DNA from: Luteitalea pratensis
GTDB lineage: Bacteria > Acidobacteriota > Vicinamibacteria > Vicinamibacterales > Vicinamibacteraceae
Direction: 5' to 3'
DNA: 64,000 bases
NCBI RefSeq assembly: GCF_001618865.1
Contig: NZ_CP015136.1
Span: 5,615,001 to 5,679,000 of the forward strand
The translations under genes and the position numbers were made by a program. Shown here piece by piece: positions 3,957 through 63,924 of this stretch (within the stretch, counting starts at the first letter, position 1; every line of letters begins with the position of its first letter). A model generated the notes under the pieces. It was not told the DNA's origin, did no database searches, and saw only the letters and a list, made by a program, of their open reading frames with translations.

Positions 3957-4062
3957 CGGCAATTTCAAATTGCAGAATTTCAGAATTTCATTGCCACCGC
4001 CAAGCTTCGAGGCGCCGAGGTGGTCGTGCAATTATGAAATGTTGAACTTCTGAAATTCCCGA
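3957..4062. repeat. Family B octamer inverted repeat
   Basis: Starting ten bases after the ATPase stop, octamers of the type AATTGCAG/AATTTCAG run into the core TTGCCACCGCC. After a central spacer the complement appears (GGTGGTCGTGCAATT, then TGAAATT units). The left and right arms could pair over most of their length. It is notably AT-richer than the surrounding coding sequence and lies between two genes transcribed in the same direction. Confidence 0.85.
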
Positions 4063-6143: not shown

Positions 6144-6250
6144 ACGCCGAAATTGCAAGATTGCAAAAGTTCAGAATTTCCTTGCCACCGCCATGGGTCA
6201 ACCTGCTGATGGTGGTGATGCAATTCTGAAATTCTGAAATTCTGCAATGC
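6144..6250. repeat. Family B octamer inverted repeat between convergent stops
   Basis: It fills the whole gap between the LON-domain stop and the dioxygenase stop. From each stop, four octamer-like units (AATTTCAG, AATTGCAG and variants) lead inward to TTGCCACCGCC on the left and its relative CACCACCATC on the right. The element is therefore symmetric about the two stop codons. Confidence 0.88.
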
Positions 6251-7084: not shown

Positions 7085-7215
7085 TGTCGCCCGAGGCCAG
7101 GCCCGCCTGCAAGAATTGCAGGAATTGCAGAAGTTCAAGATTGCACCACCTGCAATGCCGCGACGGTTGGCGGTGGTAATGCAATTCTGAAATTCTGCAA
7201 TTCCTGCAATTCTCA
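7085..7215. repeat. Family B octamer inverted repeat in a divergent intergenic region
   Basis: AATTGCAG-type units, a GCACCACC/GGCGGTGG core and the complementary AATTCTGAAATTCTGC units lie between the divergently transcribed dioxygenase and BtuF-like genes. Unlike the other copies it is not at a 3' end, so it would sit in one or both 5' leaders. The right arm ends 20 bases before the GTG start of the binding-protein gene. Confidence 0.8.
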
Positions 7216-7235: not shown

Positions 7236-8018
7236 GTGTCCTACCCGTCGCGGATCGTGTGCCTGACCGAGGAAACGACCGAGATTCTCTACCTGCTCGG
7301 CGAGGGCGATCGGGTGGTCGGGGTGTCTGGCTACACGGTGCGCCCACCCGAAGCTCGCCGCAAGCCGCGCGTCTCGTCGTTCCTGCACGCGCGGACGGAC
7401 AAGATCGACGCCCTCAAGCCTGATCTCGTCCTCGCCTTCTCGGACCTGCAGGCCGACATCGTCTCCGGGCCGATCCGACGCGGCTACCCGGTGATGACCT
7501 TCAACCAGCGCAGTGTCGACGAGGTGCTGCAGGCGGTCCGCCTCGTGGGCGGCCTGGTCGGTGCGCAGGCGCGCGCCGAGGCACTCGCTGACAGGTTGCG
7601 CGCCGGGCTCGACGCGATTGCGCGGGAAGCCACAACGTTGCCGGTACGGCCGCGCGTGTTCTTCGAGGAGTGGGACGAGCCGCTGATCTCCGGGATCCAG
7701 TGGGTCGAGGAACTGGTCGAGATCGCGGGCGGGACCCCGATCTTCCCTGAACGCCGGCAGGCGGGTCTCGCGAAGGATCGGATCGTGTCAGCCGACGAGG
7801 TGCGGTCGCGGAATCCCGACGTGATCCTGGCCTCGTGGTGCGGCAAGCGGGCCCAGCCGGCGCGCATCGCGTCACGGCCGGGATGGGAGACCATCGCTGC
7901 CGTTCGACACGGCCGGATTCACGAGATCAAGTCGTCGCTGATCCTGCAGCCGGGCCCGGCGGCGTTGACCGACGGAGTACGCCAGATAGCCGCGCACATC
8001 CGCGGGGCGGCACAATAA
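7236..8018 (+). CDS. BtuF-like substrate-binding protein (cobalamin/iron-siderophore type)
   Basis: 260 residues from a GTG start. The helical-backbone (class III) periplasmic-binding fold is recognisable: RIVCLTEETTEILYLLGEGDRVVGVS at the start, KIDALKPDLVLAFSDLQ, and the end motif VRHGRIHEIKSSLILQPGP. In the family this binds vitamin B12, haem or siderophores for ABC import. There is no signal peptide or lipobox, and no permease or ATPase next to it, so a classical import role is uncertain; soluble orphan relatives annotated as cobalamin-binding proteins are known. The stop TAA is read from the first unit of a family B repeat. Confidence 0.82.
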   Translation: MSYPSRIVCLTEETTEILYLLGEGDRVVGVSGYTVRPPEARRKPRVSSFLHARTDKIDALKPDLVLAFSDLQADIVSGPIRRGYPVMTFNQRSVDEVLQAVRLVGGLVGAQARAEALADRLRAGLDAIAREATTLPVRPRVFFEEWDEPLISGIQWVEELVEIAGGTPIFPERRQAGLAKDRIVSADEVRSRNPDVILASWCGKRAQPARIASRPGWETIAAVRHGRIHEIKSSLILQPGPAALTDGVRQIAAHIRGAAQ

Positions 8019-8146
8019 TTTCAGAATTTCCGAATTGCAGAATTGCAGTGCCACCGCCAACCTTCGAAGCGATCAGGTTGCTGAGTGGTAACGGTGGTGG
8101 TGGTGGCAGTGGTGGTGAAATTTTGAAATTCGGCAATTCTGCAATT
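8019..8146. repeat. Family B octamer inverted repeat spanning two convergent stops exactly
   Basis: From the BtuF-like stop the units are AATTTCAG, AATTTCCG, AATTGCAG, AATTGCAG, then TGCCACCGCC. From the folE stop on the other strand they are AATTGCAG, AATTGCCG, AATTTCAA, AATTTCAC, then CACCACTGCC. There are four octamers on each side and the core is in the middle. Both stop codons touch the array. Confidence 0.92.
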
Positions 8147-8686
8147 CTATTGTGCGAGTTGGAGGAACTCGGCGCGCGTGCGCGCGTCGCTGCGGAACGT
8201 GCCGAGCATCGCGCTGGTCACCGTCGCGGAGTTCTGCTTCTCCACCCCTCGCATCGCCATGCAGAGATGCGTACCATGCATGATCACGCCGACGCCGAGC
8301 GGATCGACTGCCTCGCGGATGCACTCGGCGATCTCGTTGGTCAGCCGTTCCTGCACCTGGAGGCGACGGCTGAACACATCGACGAGGCGCGGAATCTTGC
8401 TGATGCCGATGACCTGCGTACGCGGGATGTAGGCGACGTGGCACTTGCCGAAGAACGGCAGCAGGTGGTGCTCGCAGAGGCTGTAGTAGTCGACATCCTT
8501 GACGATCACCATCTCGCTGTAGTCAACGGTGAACAGCGCCCCGTTGAGGATGTCACCGATGTCGGCGGCGTACCCGCTGGTCAGGAACTTCATCGATTTC
8601 TCGACGCGTTCCGGGGTCTTGAGCAATCCCTCCCTGCTAGGATCCTCTCCGAGCTGCTCCAGCAGGGAACGGATGAGAGTCTGCAT
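8147..8686 (-). CDS. folE: GTP cyclohydrolase I
   Basis: 179 residues, close to the usual core length. It converts GTP to 7,8-dihydroneopterin triphosphate, the first step of folate (and pterin) synthesis. The zinc ligands are present: C71 and H74 in [10 protein letters not shown] and C142 in [25 protein letters not shown] and [10 protein letters not shown] are also characteristic. ATG at 8686 was preferred to the adjacent TTG at 8689. The first 14 bases overlap the divergent TPR gene start, so the two promoters must lie inside each other's coding regions. The stop codon TAG abuts a family B repeat. Confidence 0.96.
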
Positions 8687-9416: not shown

Positions 9417-9498
9417 CCGGGTGCCGGGTGCCGGGTACCGGGTGCCGGGCATCCTTCATTTTCAGCGTTCGGCGTTAGGCGTTAGGCGTTAGGCGTTC
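9417..9498. repeat. 7-bp arrays: CCGGGTG/CCGGGTA, then GGCGTTA
   Basis: Immediately after the TPR gene's TGA, five units of CCGGGTG/CCGGGTA are followed by a different word, GGCGTTC/GGCGTTA, repeated four times. These are families D and E side by side. Confidence 0.9.
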
Positions 9499-13140: not shown

Positions 13141-13222
13141 GCGGCCCCGGCGTTCGGCCTTGGGCCTTCGGCCTTCGGTCTTGAATCCTTCTGCGTTCGG
13201 CGTTCAGCGTTCGACGTTCGTC
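13141..13222. repeat. 7-bp arrays of CCTTCGG and GCGTTCG type (family E)
   Basis: CCTTGGG, CCTTCGG, CCTTCGG units are followed by GCGTTCG, GCGTTCA, GCGTTCG. Read on the minus strand, the second array (GAACGTC, GAACGCT, GAACGCC) starts three bases after the aldehyde dehydrogenase stop. Confidence 0.85.
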
Positions 13223-15148: not shown

Positions 15149-15195
15149 AAACCGGGTACCGGGTACCGGGTACCGGGTACCGGGTACCGGGTCCA
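15149..15195. repeat. CGGGTAC heptamer array (family D)
   Basis: About six tandem units of CGGGTAC start a few bases after the PilZ stop. Each junction contains the palindrome GGTACC. Confidence 0.93.
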
Positions 15196-15219
15196 TGTCC
15201 TCTCCGGGGCCGTCAAGTT

Positions 15220-15453
15220 GGTAGGGACGCCTCTGCGAGGCGTCCATGTCCTCTCCGAGGCGTCGATGTCCTCTCTCCGGGGCGTCCATCCTCCCGTAGG
15301 AGATGGACCGCTCGGAGAGCGGTCCCTACCTACCGTCACGTTGGTAGGGACGCCTCTCCGAGGCGTCCATGTCCTCTCCGAGGCGTCGATGTCCTCTCTC
15401 CGGGGCGTCCATCCTCCCGTAGGAGATGGACCGATCGGAGAGCGGTCCCTACC
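15220..15453. repeat. Tandem 123-bp duplication of a family A hairpin pair
   Basis: Two successive blocks offset by 123 bases each hold a forward hairpin (15220-15245; 15343-15368), short related fragments, and a reverse hairpin (15305-15330; 15428-15453). The blocks differ by only a few substitutions, for example loop TGC versus TCC, and one stem mismatch in the last copy. The last GGTAGGG touches the M28 peptidase stop codon. Confidence 0.92.
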
Positions 15454-16853
15454 TACTTCACCTTGATTTCCACGGGCGTGCGCGGCGGGTTGGCGTAGGC
15501 CGACACGAGGCTCTCGTGGCCGCCAGGGCCGACCGCCGCGACTCCGAACACGTAGTCATCCACTGACACGTCTGGCAACACGATCTCGGTGACGTTGCCG
15601 ACGTGCCGCTCGAACTGCCAGTCCGGAGTCCATGCCTCGCGCCAGAAGATGCGATATCCGACCGCGCCCTCGGAGGCACGCCAGCGCAGCCGTGCGTCGT
15701 AGCCGGATGGACCACGATCCAGCTGCGGCACGCCGCGGTCCGACGTGATCGCCGGTGCCGCCGGCGCCATCGCCAGCGCCGCGGCTCCGGCGACGTTGAC
15801 CTTCGTGTTCCGTGCCAGGTACGCCGCATCGACGCCGTCAGCGGTGTCCTCCACCACGTGCTGTCGTCCGTAATTCTCATTCGCTTCGCTGAAGCGGATG
15901 CCGGCGTACCCGCGCTGGTTGAAAGCGGTGTGGTCGCCACCGCGACCGAACCGATCGTGCCGCGCGATGAGGCGTACCCGGTGCGACGGCACGTAACGCG
16001 CGGCCGTGCGGTACACATAGCGCGCAAGCTGGCGTGACGACGAGTCCTCGGGTCCCTCCGCAAACACGCGCACCGATTCCGCGTCGACGATACCGTTGCC
16101 GCCGCGCGAGTTGCCGATGATGTCGTTGTTGAAGACGGCGTCGATCACGGCCTTGTCCGCCCGCGCCTTCTGGGCGTGCAGGTGCGCCCCGACCAGCCCC
16201 TGCTCTTCGCCGGCAAATGCGACGAAGACCAGCGTCGCATCGAACTCGAGACCGCTCTGCGCGAGCACACGCGCCGCCTCCATCGTCAAGGCCGTGCCGC
16301 TGCCATCGTCGTTCGCGCCCGGCGCGGGAAGATCACCGGCGGCCCAGTCGAACCCTCCGTTTGCCGAGGCTGCGCGAGGACTGCCTGCGGCCGCTGGCGC
16401 CGTCGCGGCTGCGGCGGCGGTGGTGACGGCGGCCGACTGCGGCGGCCGGACCGGACGTGCCACGGTGTCGTAGTGGCCGCTCACGTAGATGCGGCGAGCC
16501 GTGCGCCCGGGCAACACGGCGACGACGTTACGGATGCGGACGTCCCTCAGGATGCGCTCGCCCTGGGCGGGGATCTCGTAATCGTCGAAACTCACCTGCA
16601 GCCGTGGACTCGCCGCGCGGAACTCGTCGTGGATCCATTGCGCCGCGGCGCCGAGCCCTCGAACCGGGTCGGCCTGGCTGGACAGCGTGTGGCGGGTGCC
16701 GAACGCCGCCAACCTGTCGACGGTGGCCGAGAGGCGCTCGGCTGAGATCTGTGCAAGCACCTGCTCGATCCGGGGGTCGGCGTCCTGCGCGAACGCGGGC
16801 AGGGCAAAGGCTGTGGCTAGAAAGGCAGTCTGCACAGCGGGGCGAAATGGCAT
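15453..16853 (-). CDS. Secreted M28-family zinc aminopeptidase with C-terminal Fn3-like domain
   Basis: 466 residues with a signal peptide (FLATAFALPAFAQ). M28 metal ligands are visible: H127-x-D129 in SGHYDT, D182/D183 in ANDDGSG, the catalytic E216 and ligand E217 in AGEEQGL, and D244 in NNDIIG. An alanine- and proline-rich insert (~139-168) separates HYDT from NDDGSG and probably forms a surface loop. The last ~95 residues (YDARLRWRASEGAVGYRIFW to DDYVFGVAAVG) look like a fibronectin type III domain. It probably releases amino acids from extracellular peptides. ATG 16853 is chosen because it begins the signal peptide. The TAG stop shares its last G with a family A repeat. Confidence 0.92.
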   Translation of the reverse strand: MPFRPAVQTAFLATAFALPAFAQDADPRIEQVLAQISAERLSATVDRLAAFGTRHTLSSQADPVRGLGAAAQWIHDEFRAASPRLQVSFDDYEIPAQGERILRDVRIRNVVAVLPGRTARRIYVSGHYDTVARPVRPPQSAAVTTAAAAATAPAAAGSPRAASANGGFDWAAGDLPAPGANDDGSGTALTMEAARVLAQSGLEFDATLVFVAFAGEEQGLVGAHLHAQKARADKAVIDAVFNNDIIGNSRGGNGIVDAESVRVFAEGPEDSSSRQLARYVYRTAARYVPSHRVRLIARHDRFGRGGDHTAFNQRGYAGIRFSEANENYGRQHVVEDTADGVDAAYLARNTKVNVAGAAALAMAPAAPAITSDRGVPQLDRGPSGYDARLRWRASEGAVGYRIFWREAWTPDWQFERHVGNVTEIVLPDVSVDDYVFGVAAVGPGGHESLVSAYANPPRTPVEIKVK

Positions 16854-23110: not shown

Positions 23111-23360
23111 GACTCAGGGCTCACGGCTCAGGGCCTCGGGGAAACGCACCGCGCGGCTGGGCCAGGCGGCAAGCAACGGGCCGCAGGCCGCGCCCGCGAT
23201 GGGACGGGGCGCAGGCGGCGGACTACAGGCTACATACGGAGGGGGACGGAGCGGGGTTCGTCGGCCCGAGTCTCACGTCTCAAGTCTCAGGTCTCAGGAC
23301 TTGCCTGAGACCTGAGGCTTGAGGCTTGAGGCTTGAGACTTGAGTCTCGAGACGTGAGAC
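23103..23360. repeat. TCTCAGG heptamer arrays with inverted arms (family C)
   Basis: GACTCAC/GGCTCAC units near the ABC gene start are followed by ~140 bases of unclassified sequence. Then come TCTCACG, TCTCAAG, TCTCAGG units (23272-23300), a short spacer, and their complement (CTGAGAC, TTGAGGC, TTGAGAC; 23305-23360). The complement ends at the TAG stop of the HD-domain gene. Confidence 0.88.
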
Positions 23361-25426: not shown

Positions 25427-25454
25427 GAGCCCGGCAATATATCAGGAGCTTCGC

Positions 25455-25633
25455 CGGGTACCGGGTACCGGGGTACGGGTACCGGGGTACGGGTACCGGG
25501 GTACGGGTACCGGGAACCGGGAACCGGGACCGGGAACCAACTCATGCCTCATGGCGACAGCCGCGTCGGTGTTACCCGGTACGCGGATCCCGCCGTGTGA
25601 GGGGTACCCGGAACCCGGTACCCGGCACCCGAC
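25455..25633. repeat. CGGGTAC arrays with inverted arms (family D)
   Basis: A left arm of GGGTACC, GGGTACG and GGGAACC units (25456-25535) is followed by ~65 bases without repeats and a right arm of GGTACCCGG/AACCCGG complement (25590-25633). Read on the minus strand the right arm begins eight bases after the Nudix stop codon. Confidence 0.9.
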
Positions 25634-31354: not shown

Positions 31355-31500
31355 GGCTACGGCCTACAGCCTGCAGCCTCGGGACGAGCGCTCCAAGTCT
31401 CAGGTCTCAGGTCTCAGGTCTCAGGTCTCAGGTCTCAGGCCTAATGGGCTCACGTGAGACTTGAGTCCTGAGACATGGCCCTTAGCCCGTAGGCCACAGG
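31355..31500. repeat. Families F and C heptamers, inverted arms
   Basis: GGCTACG, GCCTACA, GCCTGCA units begin at the mutarotase-fold gene's stop. They give way to six TCTCAGG units (31396-31440), a short spacer, and complementary GTGAGAC, TTGAGTC, CTGAGAC units. Heptamers of GGGCTAA/GGCCTAC type (minus strand) reach the YjbQ stop. Confidence 0.9.
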
Positions 31501-31914: not shown

Positions 31915-32171
31915 GCGGCCTACAGCCTACCGCCTACAGGCTGCAGGGGCTGCGCCAACGGGCAGGCTCACAGGGTGCGACAGTTTACGGCTAACGGCTA
32001 CAGCGTGCAGGGGCTGCGCCAACGGGCAGGCTCACAGGGTGCGACAGTTTACGGCTAACGGCTACAGCGTGCAGGGTACGGCCGGACGGGCTACCCAGGC
32101 TGCAGGCAAGGCTCCAGCGCAGGCTGGAGTCTTCAGTTGCAGGCTGTAGGCCGCAGGCTGCAGGCTGCAGG
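31915..32171. repeat. GGCTGCA/CTACAGG heptamer region with a 64-bp tandem duplication (family F)
   Basis: GCCTACA, GCCTACC, GCCTACA units are followed by a 64-bp segment present twice in tandem (about 31943-32006 and 32007-32070). Then come GGCTGTA, GGCCGCA, GGCTGCA, GGCTGCA units. The last array, read on the minus strand as CCTGCAG, starts right after the TAG stop of tsaD. Confidence 0.9.
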
Positions 32172-33260
32172 CTAGAGTGTCAGCCCAGGTTCCGCGTTGA
32201 AGTCGAGCGCATCGCCACGCGCACCCGCGGCCCATCGGCGCAGGCCGGCAGCGGCGATCATGGCGGCATTGTCGGTGGCCAGGGCGAGGCTCGGCACGAA
32301 CACCGGCAGGCCTGTGGCGGCACCCCGCGCTTCGGCCTCCTGGCGCAGGCCGCTGTTGGCGGCCACGCCGCCGGCGATGCCCACGGCGCGCGCGTCGAAC
32401 CACTCGGCGGCGCGGAAGGTCCGGTCGAGCAACGTCTGGATGACGACGCGCTGAAAACTGGCGCAGATGTCGTCGATTTCGGTGTCGGTGAGTGGCCGCG
32501 CCCCGCCACCTGTGACGAGCTCGACGTGCCGCCGGACAGCCGTCTTGAGGCCACTGAAGCTGAAGTCGGCGCTCCGCTTCAGCACTTCTTCGAACCCCTC
32601 GGGCAGGTGCGTCTTCGGGCCCTTCGCGCGATCGTCGTGGGTGAGCCTGGGCACCGGGAAGGCAATGGCCTGCCGATTGCCGATCCGCGCGCGACGGTCG
32701 ACGAGCGGCCCGCCTGGATACCCGAGTCCCACCAGCTTCGCGACCTTGTCGTACGCCTCCCCCGCCGCATCGTCACGCGTCCGGCCGACGAGCCGATACA
32801 CGCCAGGTGCGGGCAGGTGGTACAGGCTGGTGTGCCCGCCGGAGACCACGAGGACCATCGCCGGGTACGGGAGGTCGCCGTTGTGCAGCGCCAGCGACTC
32901 GATGTGCCCCGCGAGGTGATGAACGGCGAGCACCGGGATGCCACGCGCCGCCCCGACGGCCTTGGCAAAGCTGACGCCGACGAGCAATGAGCCGACCAGC
33001 CCCGGCCCCTGCGTGACGGCGATGGCGTCGACGTCGTCCCAGGTCGTGCGGGCCTCGTCGAGCGCGCGTTCGACGACGCCGCAGATGTCGCGCAGATGCT
33101 GGCGAGCTGCGAGTTCGGGGACGACGCCACCCCATTCACGGTGAATCGCGACCTGCGAGGCGACGATGTTGGAGAGCAGCTGCCAACGGCCGCCCTCGGG
33201 AGCCGCCACGACGGCGGCGGCGGTCTCGTCGCAGCTGCTCTCGATGCCGAGGATGCGCAT
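32172..33260 (-). CDS. tsaD: tRNA N6-adenosine threonylcarbamoyltransferase
   Basis: 362 residues. It transfers threonylcarbamoyl to A37 of ANN-decoding tRNAs, using the adenylate made by TsaC and helped by TsaB/TsaE. Family features: ILGIESSCDET at the N-terminus, the metal-binding VHHLAGHIES (H-x3-H), VSGGHTSLY, DDAAGEAYDKVAKLLG-type ATP site (as VAKLVGLGYPGGP), and GIAGGVAANSGLR. The start ATG overlaps the mtnA stop (TGATG). The other t6A genes are not in the window. The TAG stop is joined directly to a CCTGCAG array. Confidence 0.97.
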   Translation of the reverse strand: MRILGIESSCDETAAAVVAAPEGGRWQLLSNIVASQVAIHREWGGVVPELAARQHLRDICGVVERALDEARTTWDDVDAIAVTQGPGLVGSLLVGVSFAKAVGAARGIPVLAVHHLAGHIESLALHNGDLPYPAMVLVVSGGHTSLYHLPAPGVYRLVGRTRDDAAGEAYDKVAKLVGLGYPGGPLVDRRARIGNRQAIAFPVPRLTHDDRAKGPKTHLPEGFEEVLKRSADFSFSGLKTAVRRHVELVTGGGARPLTDTEIDDICASFQRVVIQTLLDRTFRAAEWFDARAVGIAGGVAANSGLRQEAEARGAATGLPVFVPSLALATDNAAMIAAAGLRRWAAGARGDALDFNAEPGLTL

Positions 33261-35529: not shown

Positions 35530-35592
35530 TAAGGTCTCAGGTCTCAAGTCTCAGGTCAGGCCTGAGACCTGCGGCCTGAGACCTAAGACCCT
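35530..35592. repeat. TCTCAGG heptamer array with inverted arm (family C)
   Basis: Units TCTCAGG, TCTCAAG, TCTCAGG are followed at once by the complement CCTGAGA, CCTGCGG, CCTGAGA. On the minus strand the array begins inside the cdd stop codon (TTAGGTCTC). The IS110 element ends ~50 bases away. Confidence 0.9.
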
Positions 35593-45137: not shown

Positions 45138-45934
45138 GGGCGAGGCGCCCGCGCTCGCTGCTGAGCGCCCTTACGCTGGCGTCGGCGCTCTGCGTGGGTC
45201 CTGCATCGGCTCAGCCACCGACGCCTCCGCCTGTCCCGACCGAACGGCCCACGGATCGGCCTCCGACACCGACGGACCCGGTCACGATCGACGACACGAC
45301 ACAGCCGCCAGACGACGCGCCGCCCCCGCGCCCGCCCGGCCTGTCCGTGCGGCCGCGATTGTTCGGCCTGGTCGGGTTCCAGTCGTTCACCGCGTCGGAC
45401 AGCTTCTCGGCCGTGCTCGACTCGTCGAGCGGTGTCGTCTTCGGCGGCGGTGGCGGTGTGCTGCTCGGGCGCAACCTGTTCGTCGACGTCAGCATCTCGC
45501 GCTTCGCGGCGGACGGGACGCGCGTCTTCGTCACAGACGCCGGCGACATCGTCGATCTCGGCATCGCCACGGAGGTGACGGTCTTGCCAATCGACGTGTC
45601 GATCGGATGGCGCATGGAGGGCCGGCCGTCGTTCACGGCGTCGGGCAAGCCCCGCCTTCGGCCGGTGCCGTTCGCGGGCGGAGGCTTCGGGTTCCAGCAG
45701 TACAGGGAAACGTCGGAGTTTGCCAGTTCGGAAGACGACGTGGACGAGTCGCACGGCAGCTATCACGTGCTGGGCGGCATCGAGCTGCCATTCAGCCCAC
45801 ACCTGGGCGCAATCGCGGACGTCCTGTACCGGTGGGTGCCCGATGCGATCGGCACTGGCGGCGTCTCGGCGTACTACGACGAGACCGACCTGGGCGGCCC
45901 CCAGGTGCGCGTCCGCGTCGTGTTCGCGTTCTAG
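45134..45934 (+). CDS. Proline-rich linker plus outer-membrane beta-barrel-like protein
   Basis: 266 residues from a GTG start. Signal peptide (LLSALTLASALCVGPASAQ), a P/T-rich linker (~28-68), and a region of alternating beta strands (RLFGLVGFQSFTA, VVFGGGGGVLLGRNLFVDVSISRF, IDVSIGWRM, PVPFAGGGFGFQQY, HVLGGIELPF, ADVLYRWVPD) ending in VRVRVVFAF, a C-terminal aromatic consistent with an eight-strand outer-membrane barrel. It is coupled to the subtilase gene. Function unknown. The TAG stop is continuous with a GGAGTCG array. Confidence 0.72.
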   Translation: MRARRPRSLLSALTLASALCVGPASAQPPTPPPVPTERPTDRPPTPTDPVTIDDTTQPPDDAPPPRPPGLSVRPRLFGLVGFQSFTASDSFSAVLDSSSGVVFGGGGGVLLGRNLFVDVSISRFAADGTRVFVTDAGDIVDLGIATEVTVLPIDVSIGWRMEGRPSFTASGKPRLRPVPFAGGGFGFQQYRETSEFASSEDDVDESHGSYHVLGGIELPFSPHLGAIADVLYRWVPDAIGTGGVSAYYDETDLGGPQVRVRVVFAF

Positions 45935-45967
45935 GGAGTCGGGAGTCGGGAATCAAGAGTCCCCGAC
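45932..45967. repeat. GGAGTCG heptamer array (family H)
   Basis: TAG of the barrel-protein gene leads directly into GGAGTCG, GGAGTCG, GGAATCA, then the partial complement CCCCGACTG. Confidence 0.85.
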
Positions 45968-45994: not shown

Positions 45995-46082
45995 GTAGCC
46001 GTCGAGCTTGCTCGACGGTCAGTGATCTTCCCGGGAGTTCCTGCTTCCGTAGCCGTCGACCTTCAGGTCGACGGTCAGTGAT
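45995..46082. repeat. Family I hairpins, two copies
   Basis: Copy 1 (45995-46026) is GTAGCCGTCGAGC, loop TT, GCTCGACGG, tail TCAGTGAT. Copy 2 (46049-46082) is GTAGCCGTCGACCT, loop TC, AGGTCGACGG, same tail. The stem change GAGC/GCTC versus GACCT/AGGTC is compensated. Copy 2 ends six bases before the next gene's ATG. A third copy begins at the window end. Confidence 0.85.
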
Positions 46083-46088
46083 GCTGGC

Positions 46089-46490
46089 ATGAGCGAACAG
46101 CACAGGCGAGCAGAGAATCGGGCAGTCAGGACGCGAGACGACGCGCGATCGAGCCCTCGACGAATGCCGGCGCGGGGGACGCGTTCGACCCCGAAGCCGT
46201 TCGCCAATCGGGTGTTCGACGCCGTCCGGGCGATTCCGGCAGGACGGGTGGCGACGTACGGGGACGTGGCGGCGGCGGCGGGGCGACCCGGCGCGGCCCG
46301 CGCGGTGGGTACCCTGATGGCCAACTGCGGCCCCCGCCAGATCCCCGCCCATCGCGTGGTCGCGGCTGGGGGGGCGCTCGGCGGGTACGGCGGTCATGAG
46401 TCGCTGAAGGCCTCGCTGCTGCGCGCCGAGGGACTGACGGTCGTCGGCCGGCGGATCAGGAATTTTGCCGCGGTCAGGTTCAACCTTTGA
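46089..46490 (+). CDS. Alkyltransferase-like protein (MGMT fold, catalytic Cys replaced by Ala)
   Basis: 133 residues. An arginine-rich N-terminal tail (~1-35) is followed by the MGMT DNA-binding domain: FANRVFDAVRAIPAGRVATYGDVAAAAGRPGAARAVGTLMANC. The active-site motif, normally PCHR, reads IPAHRVV, so the alkyl-acceptor cysteine is absent. Cys-less alkyltransferase-like (ATL) proteins flip and hold O6-alkylguanine and hand the lesion to nucleotide excision repair; this is the likely role. The start ATG follows a family I hairpin by six bases, leaving little room for a ribosome binding site. A TCTCAGG array begins three bases after the stop. Confidence 0.9.
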   Translation: MSEQHRRAENRAVRTRDDARSSPRRMPARGTRSTPKPFANRVFDAVRAIPAGRVATYGDVAAAAGRPGAARAVGTLMANCGPRQIPAHRVVAAGGALGGYGGHESLKASLLRAEGLTVVGRRIRNFAAVRFNL

Positions 46491-46491
46491 C

Positions 46492-46668
46492 AGTCTCAGG
46501 ACTCAGGTCTCAGGTCTCAGGAGTCAGGACTCAGGTCTCAGGACTCAGGTCTCAGGGCTCAGGGCTCAGGGCTCAGGGCTCAGGGCTCAGGTCTCAGGAC
46601 TCAGGTCTCACGTCTCAGTCCGGAATCCAGAATGCGGGTGTTTGCTTGAGACCTGCGCCTTGAGACGG
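46492..46668. repeat. Longest TCTCAGG heptamer array in the window (family C)
   Basis: About seventeen units of TCTCAGG, ACTCAGG and GCTCAGG fill 46495-46615, followed after a ~30-base spacer by complement units TTGAGAC, CTGCGCC, TTGAGAC. It begins three bases after the TGA of the alkyltransferase-like gene. The first base of each unit varies (T, A, G), while CTCAGG is nearly fixed. Confidence 0.95.
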
Positions 46669-46772
46669 GGTGAATTCCACTCTGACGGAGTCCGGCCGTC
46701 GAACTCCGCGGGGCACGAACTCGTCTCTCTAGCCACCTCCGGGCAACGTTGCTCACGAGCCCACCGTCCAAG

Positions 46773-49930: not shown

Positions 49931-49977
49931 CTGTTTCAGTACAAGGGAGAAGGGACGAGGAACACGTCACCGGGGCG

Positions 49978-50019
49978 ACAAGGGACAAGGGACTTTCTTC
50001 GTTTTCCCTTGTCCCTTGT
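49978..50019. repeat. Perfect 15-bp inverted repeat of ACAAGGG heptamers (family G)
   Basis: ACAAGGGACAAGGGA, 12-base pyrimidine loop, TCCCTTGTCCCTTGT. More AGAAGGG/ACAAGGG units lie at 49941-49960. On the minus strand the array begins ~18 bases after the stop of the cytochrome-HhH gene, so it would form that transcript's 3' hairpin. Confidence 0.9.
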
Positions 50020-54890: not shown

Positions 54891-55991
54891 TCAATTCGCG
54901 AACCGCCGCATCCGGACGTTGAGGATGCAGCCGAAACTCGTGAGCGTGGCGATCATCGACGATCCGCCGTAGCTCATCAGGGGCAGGGTGAGCCCCTTGA
55001 CCGGCGCAAGGCCGGCCGACATCGCGATGTTGTAAATCACCTGGAAGGCAAAACACGAGATCAGGCCCACCACCAGGTAGGCCCCGATGCGATCCCGTGC
55101 GAGCCGCGCCGCCTCCAGCGAGCGGAGCAGCACGAACAGGTACAACCCCAGCGTGGCGAGCACGCCGATGAAGCCGTGCTCCTCGGCGAGCACGGAATAG
55201 ACGAAGTCGTTGTGGGCGACGGGCAGGAACTTGTACTGGCCCTGCGTGCCGTTGAGGAAGCCCTTGCCCGTCAGGCCGCCCGACCCGACGGTGATGCGCG
55301 CCTGGATCTGCTGGTAGCCCGCGCCGCGGGCGTCCTGCGAGGGATCCAGGAAAGTGACGACGCGCGAGCGCTGGTAGTCCTTCAGCCCATACACCCATGC
55401 GACCGGGGTGAGCAGCACGAACACCAGGAGGGCATAGCCGATGAGCCGCAGGCGGAGGCCGGCCGCGTAGGCGATCCCGCCCGCGACCGGCAGCAACGTG
55501 ACCGCCGAGCCGAGGTCCGGCTGGCGCGCGACGAGGAGGAACGGCAGCAGCAGCACGCCGCCGGCAACCGCAAGGTCGCCGCGGCGCAGCGCCGAGAGTT
55601 TGTCCTGACCGAACCACGTGGCGAGCAGCAACGCGAGTGCCGCCTTGGCAAACTCTGAGGGCTGCAGGTTGAAGACGACCAGTGAAATCCAGCGCCGGGA
55701 TCCGCCCGCCACGACGCCGAAGAAGAGGACATAGGTCAGCAGGACGGCGACACCGCCGTAGAAGACCGGCGCGTACTCCGAGAGCGTCCGGTAGTCGATC
55801 AGGAGCATCACCGTCAGCGCTACCAGGCCGATCCCGACGGCGGACAACTGGGTATAGAACTCGCGGCCGACGTGCCCGCGGATCGGGTCGTACGTCGTGC
55901 TGTAGATCATCACCAGGCCGAAGGCGCACAGCAGGAGCACGGCCCCCAACAGGCTCCAGTCGAGGTGCTTGTAGAGGCGTTGTTCAAACAT
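54891..55991 (-). CDS. rodA: Rod-shape SEDS glycosyltransferase RodA
   Basis: 366 residues, about ten membrane spans. SEDS features: GGSRRWISLVVFNLQPSEFAKAALALLLA, VARQPDLGSAVTLLPVAGGI, and the C-terminal GLAPVKGLTLPLMSYGGSSMIATL. RodA polymerises peptidoglycan strands together with the transpeptidase PBP2 (MrdA), encoded just upstream. It belongs to the mreBCD-mrdA-rodA operon on this strand. Heptamers of GGAGTCG type and a family A hairpin sit between it and mrdA. Confidence 0.96.
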   Translation of the reverse strand: MFEQRLYKHLDWSLLGAVLLLCAFGLVMIYSTTYDPIRGHVGREFYTQLSAVGIGLVALTVMLLIDYRTLSEYAPVFYGGVAVLLTYVLFFGVVAGGSRRWISLVVFNLQPSEFAKAALALLLATWFGQDKLSALRRGDLAVAGGVLLLPFLLVARQPDLGSAVTLLPVAGGIAYAAGLRLRLIGYALLVFVLLTPVAWVYGLKDYQRSRVVTFLDPSQDARGAGYQQIQARITVGSGGLTGKGFLNGTQGQYKFLPVAHNDFVYSVLAEEHGFIGVLATLGLYLFVLLRSLEAARLARDRIGAYLVVGLISCFAFQVIYNIAMSAGLAPVKGLTLPLMSYGGSSMIATLTSFGCILNVRMRRFAN

Positions 55992-55997
55992 CGGTTC

Positions 55998-56113
55998 GAC
56001 TCCGGGAGTCGGGAGTCGGGAGTCCGGAGTCGGACATCGGGCACAGGGTGCCGGGTGCCGGGCACCAGGTACCGAAGATCCGGGACGGTAGGGCCGGCTC
56101 TCCGAGCCCGGCC
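55998..56113. repeat. Mixed repeat block: GGAGTCG and CGGGTGC heptamers, family A hairpin
   Basis: GGGAGTC x3 (family H), then GGGTGCC units (family D-like; 56046-56075), then a forward family A hairpin (56087-56113; stem CCGGCTC). Three families lie side by side in the 150-base gap between mrdA and rodA. Confidence 0.88.
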
Positions 56114-56144
56114 ATCCGGCGGTCAGCGTCCGGTCGAACGGGCA

Positions 56145-58079
56145 TCATGGCTCGACACCACCGGGGGTGGGTGTCACCGGCGTGGACGGCGCGCGGTGCT
56201 GCGCCGCGACGACCTCGGCCGGCAACGGCACGCCCGGCGGGACCGGTGTCCCAGGCAGCGGCGGCAGCGTCGGCAGGGGCCGCCCTTCCTGCTTGGCGAA
56301 CCACGTCTCCATCATGTATTTCGCGATCGGCGCGGCAAAGTAACCGTGCTCGGCGTGCTCGGCGAACACGACGCCGGCAATGGTCGGATTCTTCGCCGGC
56401 GCGAAGAACACGAACCAGCCGTGATCGCGCAGATCGCGGTCGCCACGGGCGCGGGCCTTGCCCTGGTTGGAGATGACCTGGGCGGTGCCGGTCTTGCCGC
56501 CAACGTCGTAGCCGACGATCCTGCCGCGGCCGCCGGTGCCTGCACCGTTGACCACCATCCACAGCCCTTCACGGACGACGTCGACGTGTGACAACCCGAG
56601 GTCCTTCTGACCTTCCGGCGGCGGGAGTTGCTCCCAGCCCTTGCCGTTGTCGATCGCCCGCACCATGTGCGGCACGATCCGGGTGCCGCCGTTGGCCACC
56701 GACGCCATCATCACGGCGAGCGAGATGGGCGTCACCGACACCTGACCCTGGCCGATCGACACCGAGATCGTCTCGCCGGCGTACCACTTCTCGCCCGTCC
56801 GCTGCTTCTTCCACGCGGTGGACGGCATGATGCCCCGCGTTTCGTGCGGCAGGTCGACGCCACTCATCTCGCCGAGCCCGAGCGCGGTCGCCCACTTGTG
56901 GATGCGGTCGACGCCGAGCATGTTGCCGAGCGTGTAGAAGTAGACGTTGCACGACTTCTCCAGCGCCTCACGCATCGCGACCGACCCATGGCCGCCGGCC
57001 TTGTGACACTTGAAGTAGCGTCCGTAGAAGGTTGCGCCGCCACTGCAGAACACGCGAGTCTCCGGCGTGACCACGCCTTCTTCGAGACCTGCCACCGCCA
57101 CGGCGATCTTGAACGTCGACCCGGGCGAATAGCGGCCCTGGATGGCGCGGTTGTTCAGCGGCCGAAGCGGGTCGGTCAGCAGGCCGTTCCATTCCTCGCG
57201 GCCGATGCCCGCCGCGAAGGCGTTGGGGTCGTAGGCGGGCAGCGACGACAGCGCCAGCACCTCGCCGCTCGACGGCGCGAGCGCGATCGCGGCACCGCGG
57301 AATCCGTAGTGCCTGAAGGCCTCCTCGGCGGCACGCTGGACGTCGCCGTCGATCGTCAACTGGAGGCGGCGCCCCTCGATCGGATCCTCTTCGCCGAGGA
57401 CGTCGATCTCGCGGCCACGGCTGTTGACGATCACGTGGCGGGCGCCATCGGCGCCCATCAGCAGCGGGTTGTAGGTCTGCTCGACACCGGCCTGCCCCAC
57501 GATCGCCCCGCCCTGGACGTCCTTGTATTCCGGCCGCGCCAGCTGGGCGTCGGTGACCTCGCCGACGTACCCGATCAGGTGCGCCGCCATCGAGTTGGTC
57601 GGGTAACGACGGGTGGGCACCTTCTCCACGATGACGCCCGGCAGTTCGAGCCGGTGCGCGGCGACCGACGCAATCTGCGCCTCGGTCGCATCACGCAGCA
57701 CCACGATCGGCCGGTAAGCGGGCAACCGCTTGTTGCGATCGAGGGCCTCGAGGATGGCTTCGACCGACGCGCCCGTCAGTTGCGCGACGGCATGGGCGGT
57801 CCGCTCGAGGTCGTTGGTCTGCTCGCGAACGATGGAGATGTTGAAGGCGAAACGGTTTTCGACCAGCACCGTGCCGCCCCGATCGAACAGCACCCCGCGC
57901 GGCGCCGCCAGGGGCAACGCCCGCTGGTGGTTGTTCTCCGCCATCTCGAGGAACTGCTGGTGACGCGCAATCTGGAAGTACCAGAACGCTGTCGCCAGCA
58001 CGAGGAAGGCCACGGCGAAGCTCCACTGGAGCACGCGCAGACGCAGCGGCAGGTTGAGGCGTTCCTCGTTGACGAGCAT
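56145..58079 (-). CDS. mrdA: Penicillin-binding protein 2 (MrdA), peptidoglycan transpeptidase
   Basis: 644 residues. One membrane span (VLQWSFAVAFLVLATAFWYF), dimerisation/pedestal domain, then the transpeptidase domain with S-x-x-K in SPGSTFKIAVA, S-x-N in KSCNVYFYTLG and K-T-G in GGKTGTAQV. It crosslinks lateral-wall peptidoglycan with RodA. The C-terminal tail (~600-644) is proline-rich. It is the fourth mre/mrd gene on this strand, 19 bases after mreD. Confidence 0.96.
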   Translation of the reverse strand: MLVNEERLNLPLRLRVLQWSFAVAFLVLATAFWYFQIARHQQFLEMAENNHQRALPLAAPRGVLFDRGGTVLVENRFAFNISIVREQTNDLERTAHAVAQLTGASVEAILEALDRNKRLPAYRPIVVLRDATEAQIASVAAHRLELPGVIVEKVPTRRYPTNSMAAHLIGYVGEVTDAQLARPEYKDVQGGAIVGQAGVEQTYNPLLMGADGARHVIVNSRGREIDVLGEEDPIEGRRLQLTIDGDVQRAAEEAFRHYGFRGAAIALAPSSGEVLALSSLPAYDPNAFAAGIGREEWNGLLTDPLRPLNNRAIQGRYSPGSTFKIAVAVAGLEEGVVTPETRVFCSGGATFYGRYFKCHKAGGHGSVAMREALEKSCNVYFYTLGNMLGVDRIHKWATALGLGEMSGVDLPHETRGIMPSTAWKKQRTGEKWYAGETISVSIGQGQVSVTPISLAVMMASVANGGTRIVPHMVRAIDNGKGWEQLPPPEGQKDLGLSHVDVVREGLWMVVNGAGTGGRGRIVGYDVGGKTGTAQVISNQGKARARGDRDLRDHGWFVFFAPAKNPTIAGVVFAEHAEHGYFAAPIAKYMMETWFAKQEGRPLPTLPPLPGTPVPPGVPLPAEVVAAQHRAPSTPVTPTPGGVEP

Positions 58080-59609: not shown

Positions 59610-59703
59610 GACGGCCTTCGGCCTTCGGCCTTGGGCCTTCGTTCTTGGTCAGCATTCAGCATTCGGGTTCGGCGTTCGGCGTTCGGCGTTCGGCGTTGGA
59701 CAG
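59610..59703. repeat. CCTTCGG and GCGTTCG heptamer arrays (family E)
   Basis: CCTTCGG, CCTTCGG, CCTTGGG, CCTTCGT units, then CAGCATT units, then GTTCGGC x5 up to nine bases from the mreB stop. It lies between mreB and mreC in the same operon. Confidence 0.9.
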
Positions 59704-63876: not shown

Positions 63877-63924
63877 GAATCGGGAATCGGGTACGGGGTA
63901 CCGGGTACCGGGTACCGGGTACGA
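63877..63924. repeat. GAATCGG and GGGTACC heptamer arrays (families H and D)
   Basis: GAATCGG x2 then GTACGGG, GTACCGG x3 units begin ~4 bases after the foldase stop. Confidence 0.9.

Follow-up and report, generated by a model that had tools for sequence, protein, structure and literature searches.

Heptanucleotide tandem arrays of many words in the intergenic DNA of Luteitalea and their replacement at shared gene junctions

Why should tandem repeats of differing sequence within one bacterial genome keep a common period of seven bases? The question was raised by an array on the plus strand at positions 46493 to 46618 of the window, the 64,000-bp stretch of DNA analyzed here (5,615,001 to 5,679,000 of the closed 7,480,314-bp Luteitalea genome, G000). 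The array (126 bp) was resolved by TRF as 18.0 copies of GTCTCAG, equivalent to CTCAGG followed by T (7 units), A (5 units), or G (5 units), plus two other substitutions, in agreement with a first-pass annotation of about seventeen TCTCAGG-like units that vary mainly at one base. Within the interval of 46492 to 46668 originally assigned to it, positions 46619 to 46668 are a spacer containing two inverted TTGAGAC remnants (minus strand, 46647 to 46667) spaced by 14 bp. The array starts 2 bp past a TGA stop, that of a short gene encoding an O6-methylguanine-DNA methyltransferase DNA-binding domain, and sits upstream of a gene for a sigma-70-family (ECF-like) sigma factor. It was missing at the orthologous junction in both congeners compared, Luteitalea sp. 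TBR-22 and a second congener, G004. In G004 (L030), a period-9 micro-array (CCGGCATTC/CCGGCATGC) occupied this junction, upstream of the gene for the sigma factor. No tRNA, and no Rfam family at gathering score, was found in the window.

Arrays were called with TRF and a period-specific scorer at a fixed score threshold, and the genome sample consisted of three pieces totaling 1.259 Mb (17% of the genome). This sample contained 247 period-7 arrays. Period 8 followed with 33, period 9 with 9, period 6 with 4, and period 10 with 1, and periods 4, 5, and 11 were not represented; an order-2 Markov shuffle produced no period-7 arrays. In the window, 14 period-7 and 2 period-8 arrays exceeded the score threshold, and no other period from 3 to 13 was represented. 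At the period-7 density of the sample, the whole genome would have roughly 1,470 arrays. The autocorrelation of intergenic sequence proposed in the first-pass annotation gave a concordant result, with 409 lag-7 match runs of at least 8 in 138 kb of intergenic DNA versus 3.5 in shuffles (about 117-fold); lags 14, 21, and 28 followed lag 7 in excess, and lags 5, 6, and 10 were near chance or modestly higher. With the arrays masked, short isolated runs numbered 58 at lag 7 (8.0 expected) and 30 at lag 8 (9.1 expected), and the isolated lag-7 matches may represent recent duplications or what is left of degenerated arrays. The pattern of many periods and no excess of seven, under which the proposed constancy would have failed, was therefore not what the period counts and the autocorrelation revealed. 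The observation in the window is real and much larger than first noted. A 7-nt unit thus recurs in tandem beyond its expected length and frequency and is preferred among units of 5 to 11 nt, as in heptanucleotide long simple sequence repeats (LSSRs). The arrays are also present in the independently sequenced TBR-22 and in many metagenome-assembled genomes, which argues against an assembly artifact.

Other repeats were observed in the same DNA. Period 8 was the sole other clearly enriched short period in G000 (33 arrays in 1.26 Mb), and the window contains an AT-rich period-8 family of AATTCTGA-like sequence (3961 to 3990, 6222 to 6248, 7180 to 7213, and 8017 to 8148). A 123-bp unit composed of 20-bp repeats (CCTCTCCGAGGCGTCCATGT) is tandemly duplicated at 97% identity at 15210 to 15456, and a 64-bp tandem duplication (95% identity) at 31927 to 32076 adjoins a GGCTGCA heptad array. 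Dispersed REP-like palindromes were seen at about 46015 to 46080 and at 55991 to 56145 of the window and in genome region L011 to L024. One of these starts with GTAG (GTAGCCGTCGAGCTTGCTCGACGG) and resembles the GTAG-tagged REPs of PMC3733652; another is TAGGGCCGGCTCTCCGAGCCGGCCCTACC.

Period-7 arrays of CGGGTAC, GCCGAAC/CCTTCGG, GGCTGCA, and GGAGTCG, all listed in the first-pass annotation, were recovered by TRF, and its ACAAGGG array proved weak, consisting of just two short GACAAGG/TCCCTTG pieces (49977 to 49993 and 50005 to 50019; no strand assigned). Different words side by side, as had also been described, were seen on the plus strand at 9417 to 9497, where a CCGGGTG array immediately past a stop codon is followed by a TTAGGCG array whose words form a gradient, and on the minus strand at 56003 to 56062, where CGGGAGT (56003 to 56033) is followed by GGGTGCC and TBR-22 has the same or nearly the same words in more copies. 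At other junctions, the congeners carried different words. CGGCCTT and then TTCGGCG arrays (13148 to 13220, plus) correspond to TCAAGCT and CGTTAAA arrays in TBR-22, and a perfect (ACCGGGT)6 located 4 bp past a stop (15151 to 15192, plus) corresponds to CGGGAGT, likewise 4 bp past the stop, in TBR-22. A GTCTCAG array separated by a short spacer from an inverted TGAGACT/TTGAGGC array (23270 to 23360, plus) is matched by AACCGGG in G004 and CGGGAAT in TBR-22, and CCGGGTA arrays (25454 to 25538, plus) with an ACCCGGA piece at 25606 to 25631 are matched by CGGGAGT in G004 and CCGGGCA in TBR-22. A GGGAGTC (CGGGAGT) array that overlaps the stop of the preceding gene (45934 to 45951, plus) corresponds to a TGAGCCT array in G004. 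For the CGGCCTT and GTTCGGC arrays at 59612 to 59697 (minus), G004 retains CGGCCTT and TBR-22 has CGGGAGT and CGACTCC. Further arrays were a perfect (GTCTCAG)6 (31397 to 31439, plus) and an AGCCTGC (GGCTGCA) array (32096 to 32173, minus), both called by TRF and the period scorer, as well as an inverted pair of AGGTCTC and then CCTGAGA (35532 to 35590, plus) and a GAATCGG/CGGGTAC array 4 bp past a stop (63877 to 63922, plus), both called by TRF.

The 247 arrays in 1.26 Mb represented 72 canonical consensus words, led by ACCTGAG, ACCCGGT, AACGCCG, and ACTCCCG. The words had been described as unrelated; they do change at a constant period, but 68 of the 72, accounting for 98% of arrays, are linked in a single-substitution network and so are not mutually independent. 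The largest component formed by letter-shuffled control words held 43 to 80% of arrays, and the network of real words is tighter than that of shuffled words, though only somewhat. Words also changed in phase along single arrays, and neighboring units differed by 0.82 mismatches versus 1.65 for distant units, which fits local duplication. Variation within units was confined to particular positions. In the TGAGACC family (47 arrays), positions 1 to 7 were variable in 3, 8, 13, 8, 25, 3, and 27 arrays (P of about 1e-8, an optimistic value because arrays of one family are not fully independent). Arrays of ACCGGGT varied at positions 1 and 7, those of AGGCATC at position 7, and those of CCCGACT in TBR-22 at position 6. 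Whole-genome matches to 3.5 copies of TGAGNCN numbered 395, compared with 115 and 119 when the degenerate bases were placed in two other ways. Such fixed variable positions could result from constraint, or the polymorphic arrays could descend from a common ancestor.

Placement relative to genes was evaluated with a simple codon-usage caller written for the analysis, whose gene boundaries are approximate. Most period-7 arrays (216 of 247) were intergenic. Between codirectional genes, 28% of arrays began 0 to 5 nt from the upstream stop, compared with 7% under random placement, and some overlapped the stop codon itself (e.g., TAACGCCTAACGCC); no comparable pile-up was found at start codons in codirectional gaps. 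Arrays made up 5.1% of the base pairs in divergent gaps versus 7.7 to 8.2% elsewhere, a contrast that varied between regions. Candidate signals at gene ends were considered. The frequencies of the TGAG and CTCA orientations with respect to the upstream gene did not differ (24 versus 25), which gives no support to an RNA-level directional signal, and the sense strand near stops contained 29% C and 34% G, which speaks against a C-rich Rho-type signal. A role in providing stop codons in three frames was also rejected, as the excess of words with a stop was modest (43% versus 31% of shuffles on either strand and 8% versus 6% on both strands).

The period was kept between species whose dominant words differed, in accordance with the original claim. 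A 400-kb sample of TBR-22 contained 54 period-7 arrays, with ACTCCCG, ACCGGGC, and ACTGCCG as leading words. Matches to three copies of TGAGACC (≤2 mismatches, overlaps counted) numbered 482 in G000, 1 in TBR-22, and 11 in G004, and matches to three copies of CGGGAGT (overlaps counted) numbered 190, 606, and 141, respectively. Among 36 orthologous junctions at which the gap was 40 bp or longer in G000 as well as in TBR-22 (one genome per species compared), 8 had arrays in both species, more than the 4.6 to 5.0 expected (length-stratified permutation, P = 0.015 to 0.019), and words differed by at least two substitutions at 7 of these 8. At the site with shared words (55991 region), copy numbers were 4.1 and 2.4 in G000 and 7.6 and 5.3 in TBR-22. 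Distinct words lay within one substitution of each other more often between the two congeners (5.1% versus 2.6% in the null) than between families (2.7% versus 2.3%). Across 21 relatives from genus to order level (0.77 Mb), 48 arrays had period 7, 16 had period 9, 12 had period 8, and 11 had period 6, and several families had no period-7 arrays; the excess was moderate in Pyrinomonadaceae and related loci and almost absent from Acidobacteriaceae loci. In G012 and G016, a reversed but not complemented CGGGAGT control gave 32 and 36 matches, which suggests another heptad word of equal composition there.

Collectively, these results are best explained by a genome-wide heptanucleotide LSSR system, in which duplication and deletion in steps of 7 bp act on tolerant intergenic DNA at the 3' ends of genes, a reading to which we assign a probability of roughly 0.6. 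Under this reading, short 7-bp tandem duplications would arise and then gain or lose units through strand slippage or unequal events with a preferred step of 7 bp. Loops of 7 bp evade mismatch repair, and escape through loop size would leave a genome without 1- to 5-nt repeats yet with heptad arrays. Loss of mismatch repair is rejected as the cause because MutS1 was found in G000 and in every relative searched, with some matches partial in fragmented genomes. Selection would purge arrays from coding sequences and promoters and tolerate them just past stops, where they may be neutral, and point mutation followed by local re-duplication would let words drift along and between arrays. Slippage fits the evidence of local duplication, but alone it leaves unexplained the recurrence of one word at many unlinked loci that have no flanks in common and the confinement of variation to certain positions. 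The 482 TGAGACC matches in G000 versus 1 in TBR-22 are hard to obtain by purely local slippage from random seeds, and the uneven polymorphism within units counts against the LSSR reading. Site sharing between species exceeds expectation, and neutral tolerance would account for only part of it. A further step would be needed, in which words are carried between loci or certain words are favored.

A bolder possibility is an activity that would act in trans in steps of seven nucleotides, writing or converting intergenic heptad arrays and spreading the current words between unlinked sites without their flanks. We regard this as unlikely; if it were true, relatives that keep the period and the sites and exchange the words would represent genome-wide concerted evolution of 7-bp words. 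Similarly improbable are recognition arrays, maintained or spread by a DNA-binding or DNA-cutting protein that has the 7-bp repeat as its footprint and reads unit cores such as TGAG-N-C-N, CCGGG, and GANT. The position-specific variability, with all four letters at free positions, the TGAGNCN excess, and the sites common to G000 and TBR-22 are consistent with such a protein, as is the likewise position-specific Xanthomonas consensus GGGANTN (PMC4692102). However, the word families share no consistent core, each genome has many words, no dinucleotide, palindrome, or self-pairing rule sets the words strongly apart from shuffles, and shared ancestry of polymorphic arrays could yield the same pattern.

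Hairpins in RNA or DNA at gene ends, formed by inverted array pairs and acting as terminators or in protection of mRNA 3' ends, are very unlikely to be the general explanation. Inverted pairs do exist (e.g., 23270 to 23360, 35532 to 35590, and several in TBR-22), arrays are placed at stop codons, and inverted neighbor pairs in TBR-22 exceeded expectation (8 versus 2.4) in one consensus-level test. However, exact inverted partners were not more frequent than in controls with arrays and flanks swapped, self-pairing of words was at the null level, the region from 46480 to 46680 did not fold better than shuffles (z = −1.33), and no U-tract or intrinsic terminator was found at the 46.5-kb array. 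The swapped-control, folding, and terminator tests were all negative, and the general hairpin or intrinsic terminator class is rejected. G-quadruplex elements, as proposed for the heptamers of Xanthomonas and Nostoc, would apply to words with a G-tract in each unit (ACCGGGT, ACTCCCG, and AATCGGG) and could hold for this G-rich subset. They are excluded as a general cause of the seven-base period, because GGG or CCC occurs in the unit of only 79 of the 247 arrays; the commonest word, TGAGACC, and the AAATCTG and AAAGTTG words of relatives have no G-tract and still have period 7. Copies of a larger heptad-carrying mobile element (MITE, REP, or transposon end) might account for identical words at many loci and for REP-like palindromes in the same intergenic regions, but this idea is hardly tenable, since flanks were shared by 109 of 3,765 same-word pairs (2.9%) versus 625 of 26,616 different-word pairs (2.3%) in 1.26 Mb, inspected flank matches were mostly REP-like palindromes, and no conserved sequence extended beyond the heptads.

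The LSSR reading has precedent. In most LSSR-rich genomes, heptanucleotides outnumber every other LSSR class (Mrazek 2007 as cited in PMC4679880), and slippage related to the polymerase footprint has been suggested as their origin (Mrazek 2007 as cited in PMC4679880 and PMC4692102). As described in these citing papers, the prokaryotic LSSRs of Mrazek, Guo and Shah (2007) resemble the Luteitalea arrays in being scattered over the genome with units of 7 over-represented among 5 to 11 nt; Acidobacteriota are outside the ten top genomes quoted there, and Luteitalea differs in its many words and in word replacement at orthologous sites. A search of open-license texts returned no paper that describes such repeats in Acidobacteriota. 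That seven is over-represented among bacterial tandem repeats has been on record since 2007, and no accepted explanation has emerged. With about a thousand arrays of many words in a single closed genome, a second closed genome in the genus, and strains in culture, Luteitalea makes word-specific explanations (G-quadruplex or one binding motif) separable from a process that sets only the step length. Since sister species often have different words at the same junctions, the choice of seven becomes testable, and any mechanism must accommodate both word replacement at shared junctions and fixed variable positions within units.

Among individual systems, the GGGAATC repeats of Xanthomonas and GGGGA(C/T)T repeats of Nostoc (PMC4692102) are similar in period, in location in codirectional gaps near or overlapping stops with scarcity in divergent gaps, in some convergent inverted pairs, in length variation at shared sites, and in position-specific unit variation (GGGANTN). 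The Luteitalea arrays agree with this class in stop codon placement and divergent-gap depletion and differ in lacking a G-tract in each unit (present in 79 of 247 arrays): Xanthomonas and Nostoc have one G-rich word family, whereas Luteitalea has 72 consensus words in 1.26 Mb, and two-thirds of its arrays are without a G-tract. The TAACTGA repeats of marine Beggiatoaceae, some Cyanobacteria, and Bacteroidetes (PMC4679880) are also intergenic heptamer direct repeats, but they consist of a single word in few copies, mostly just upstream of starts, in contrast to the many words at 3' ends in Luteitalea. The tandem heptamers of the cyanobacterium Calothrix, by their description as cited in PMC4692102, likewise comprise several different heptamers per genome. 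Heptamer repeats are thus known from other bacteria, and what is notable in Luteitalea is the replacement of words at shared sites.
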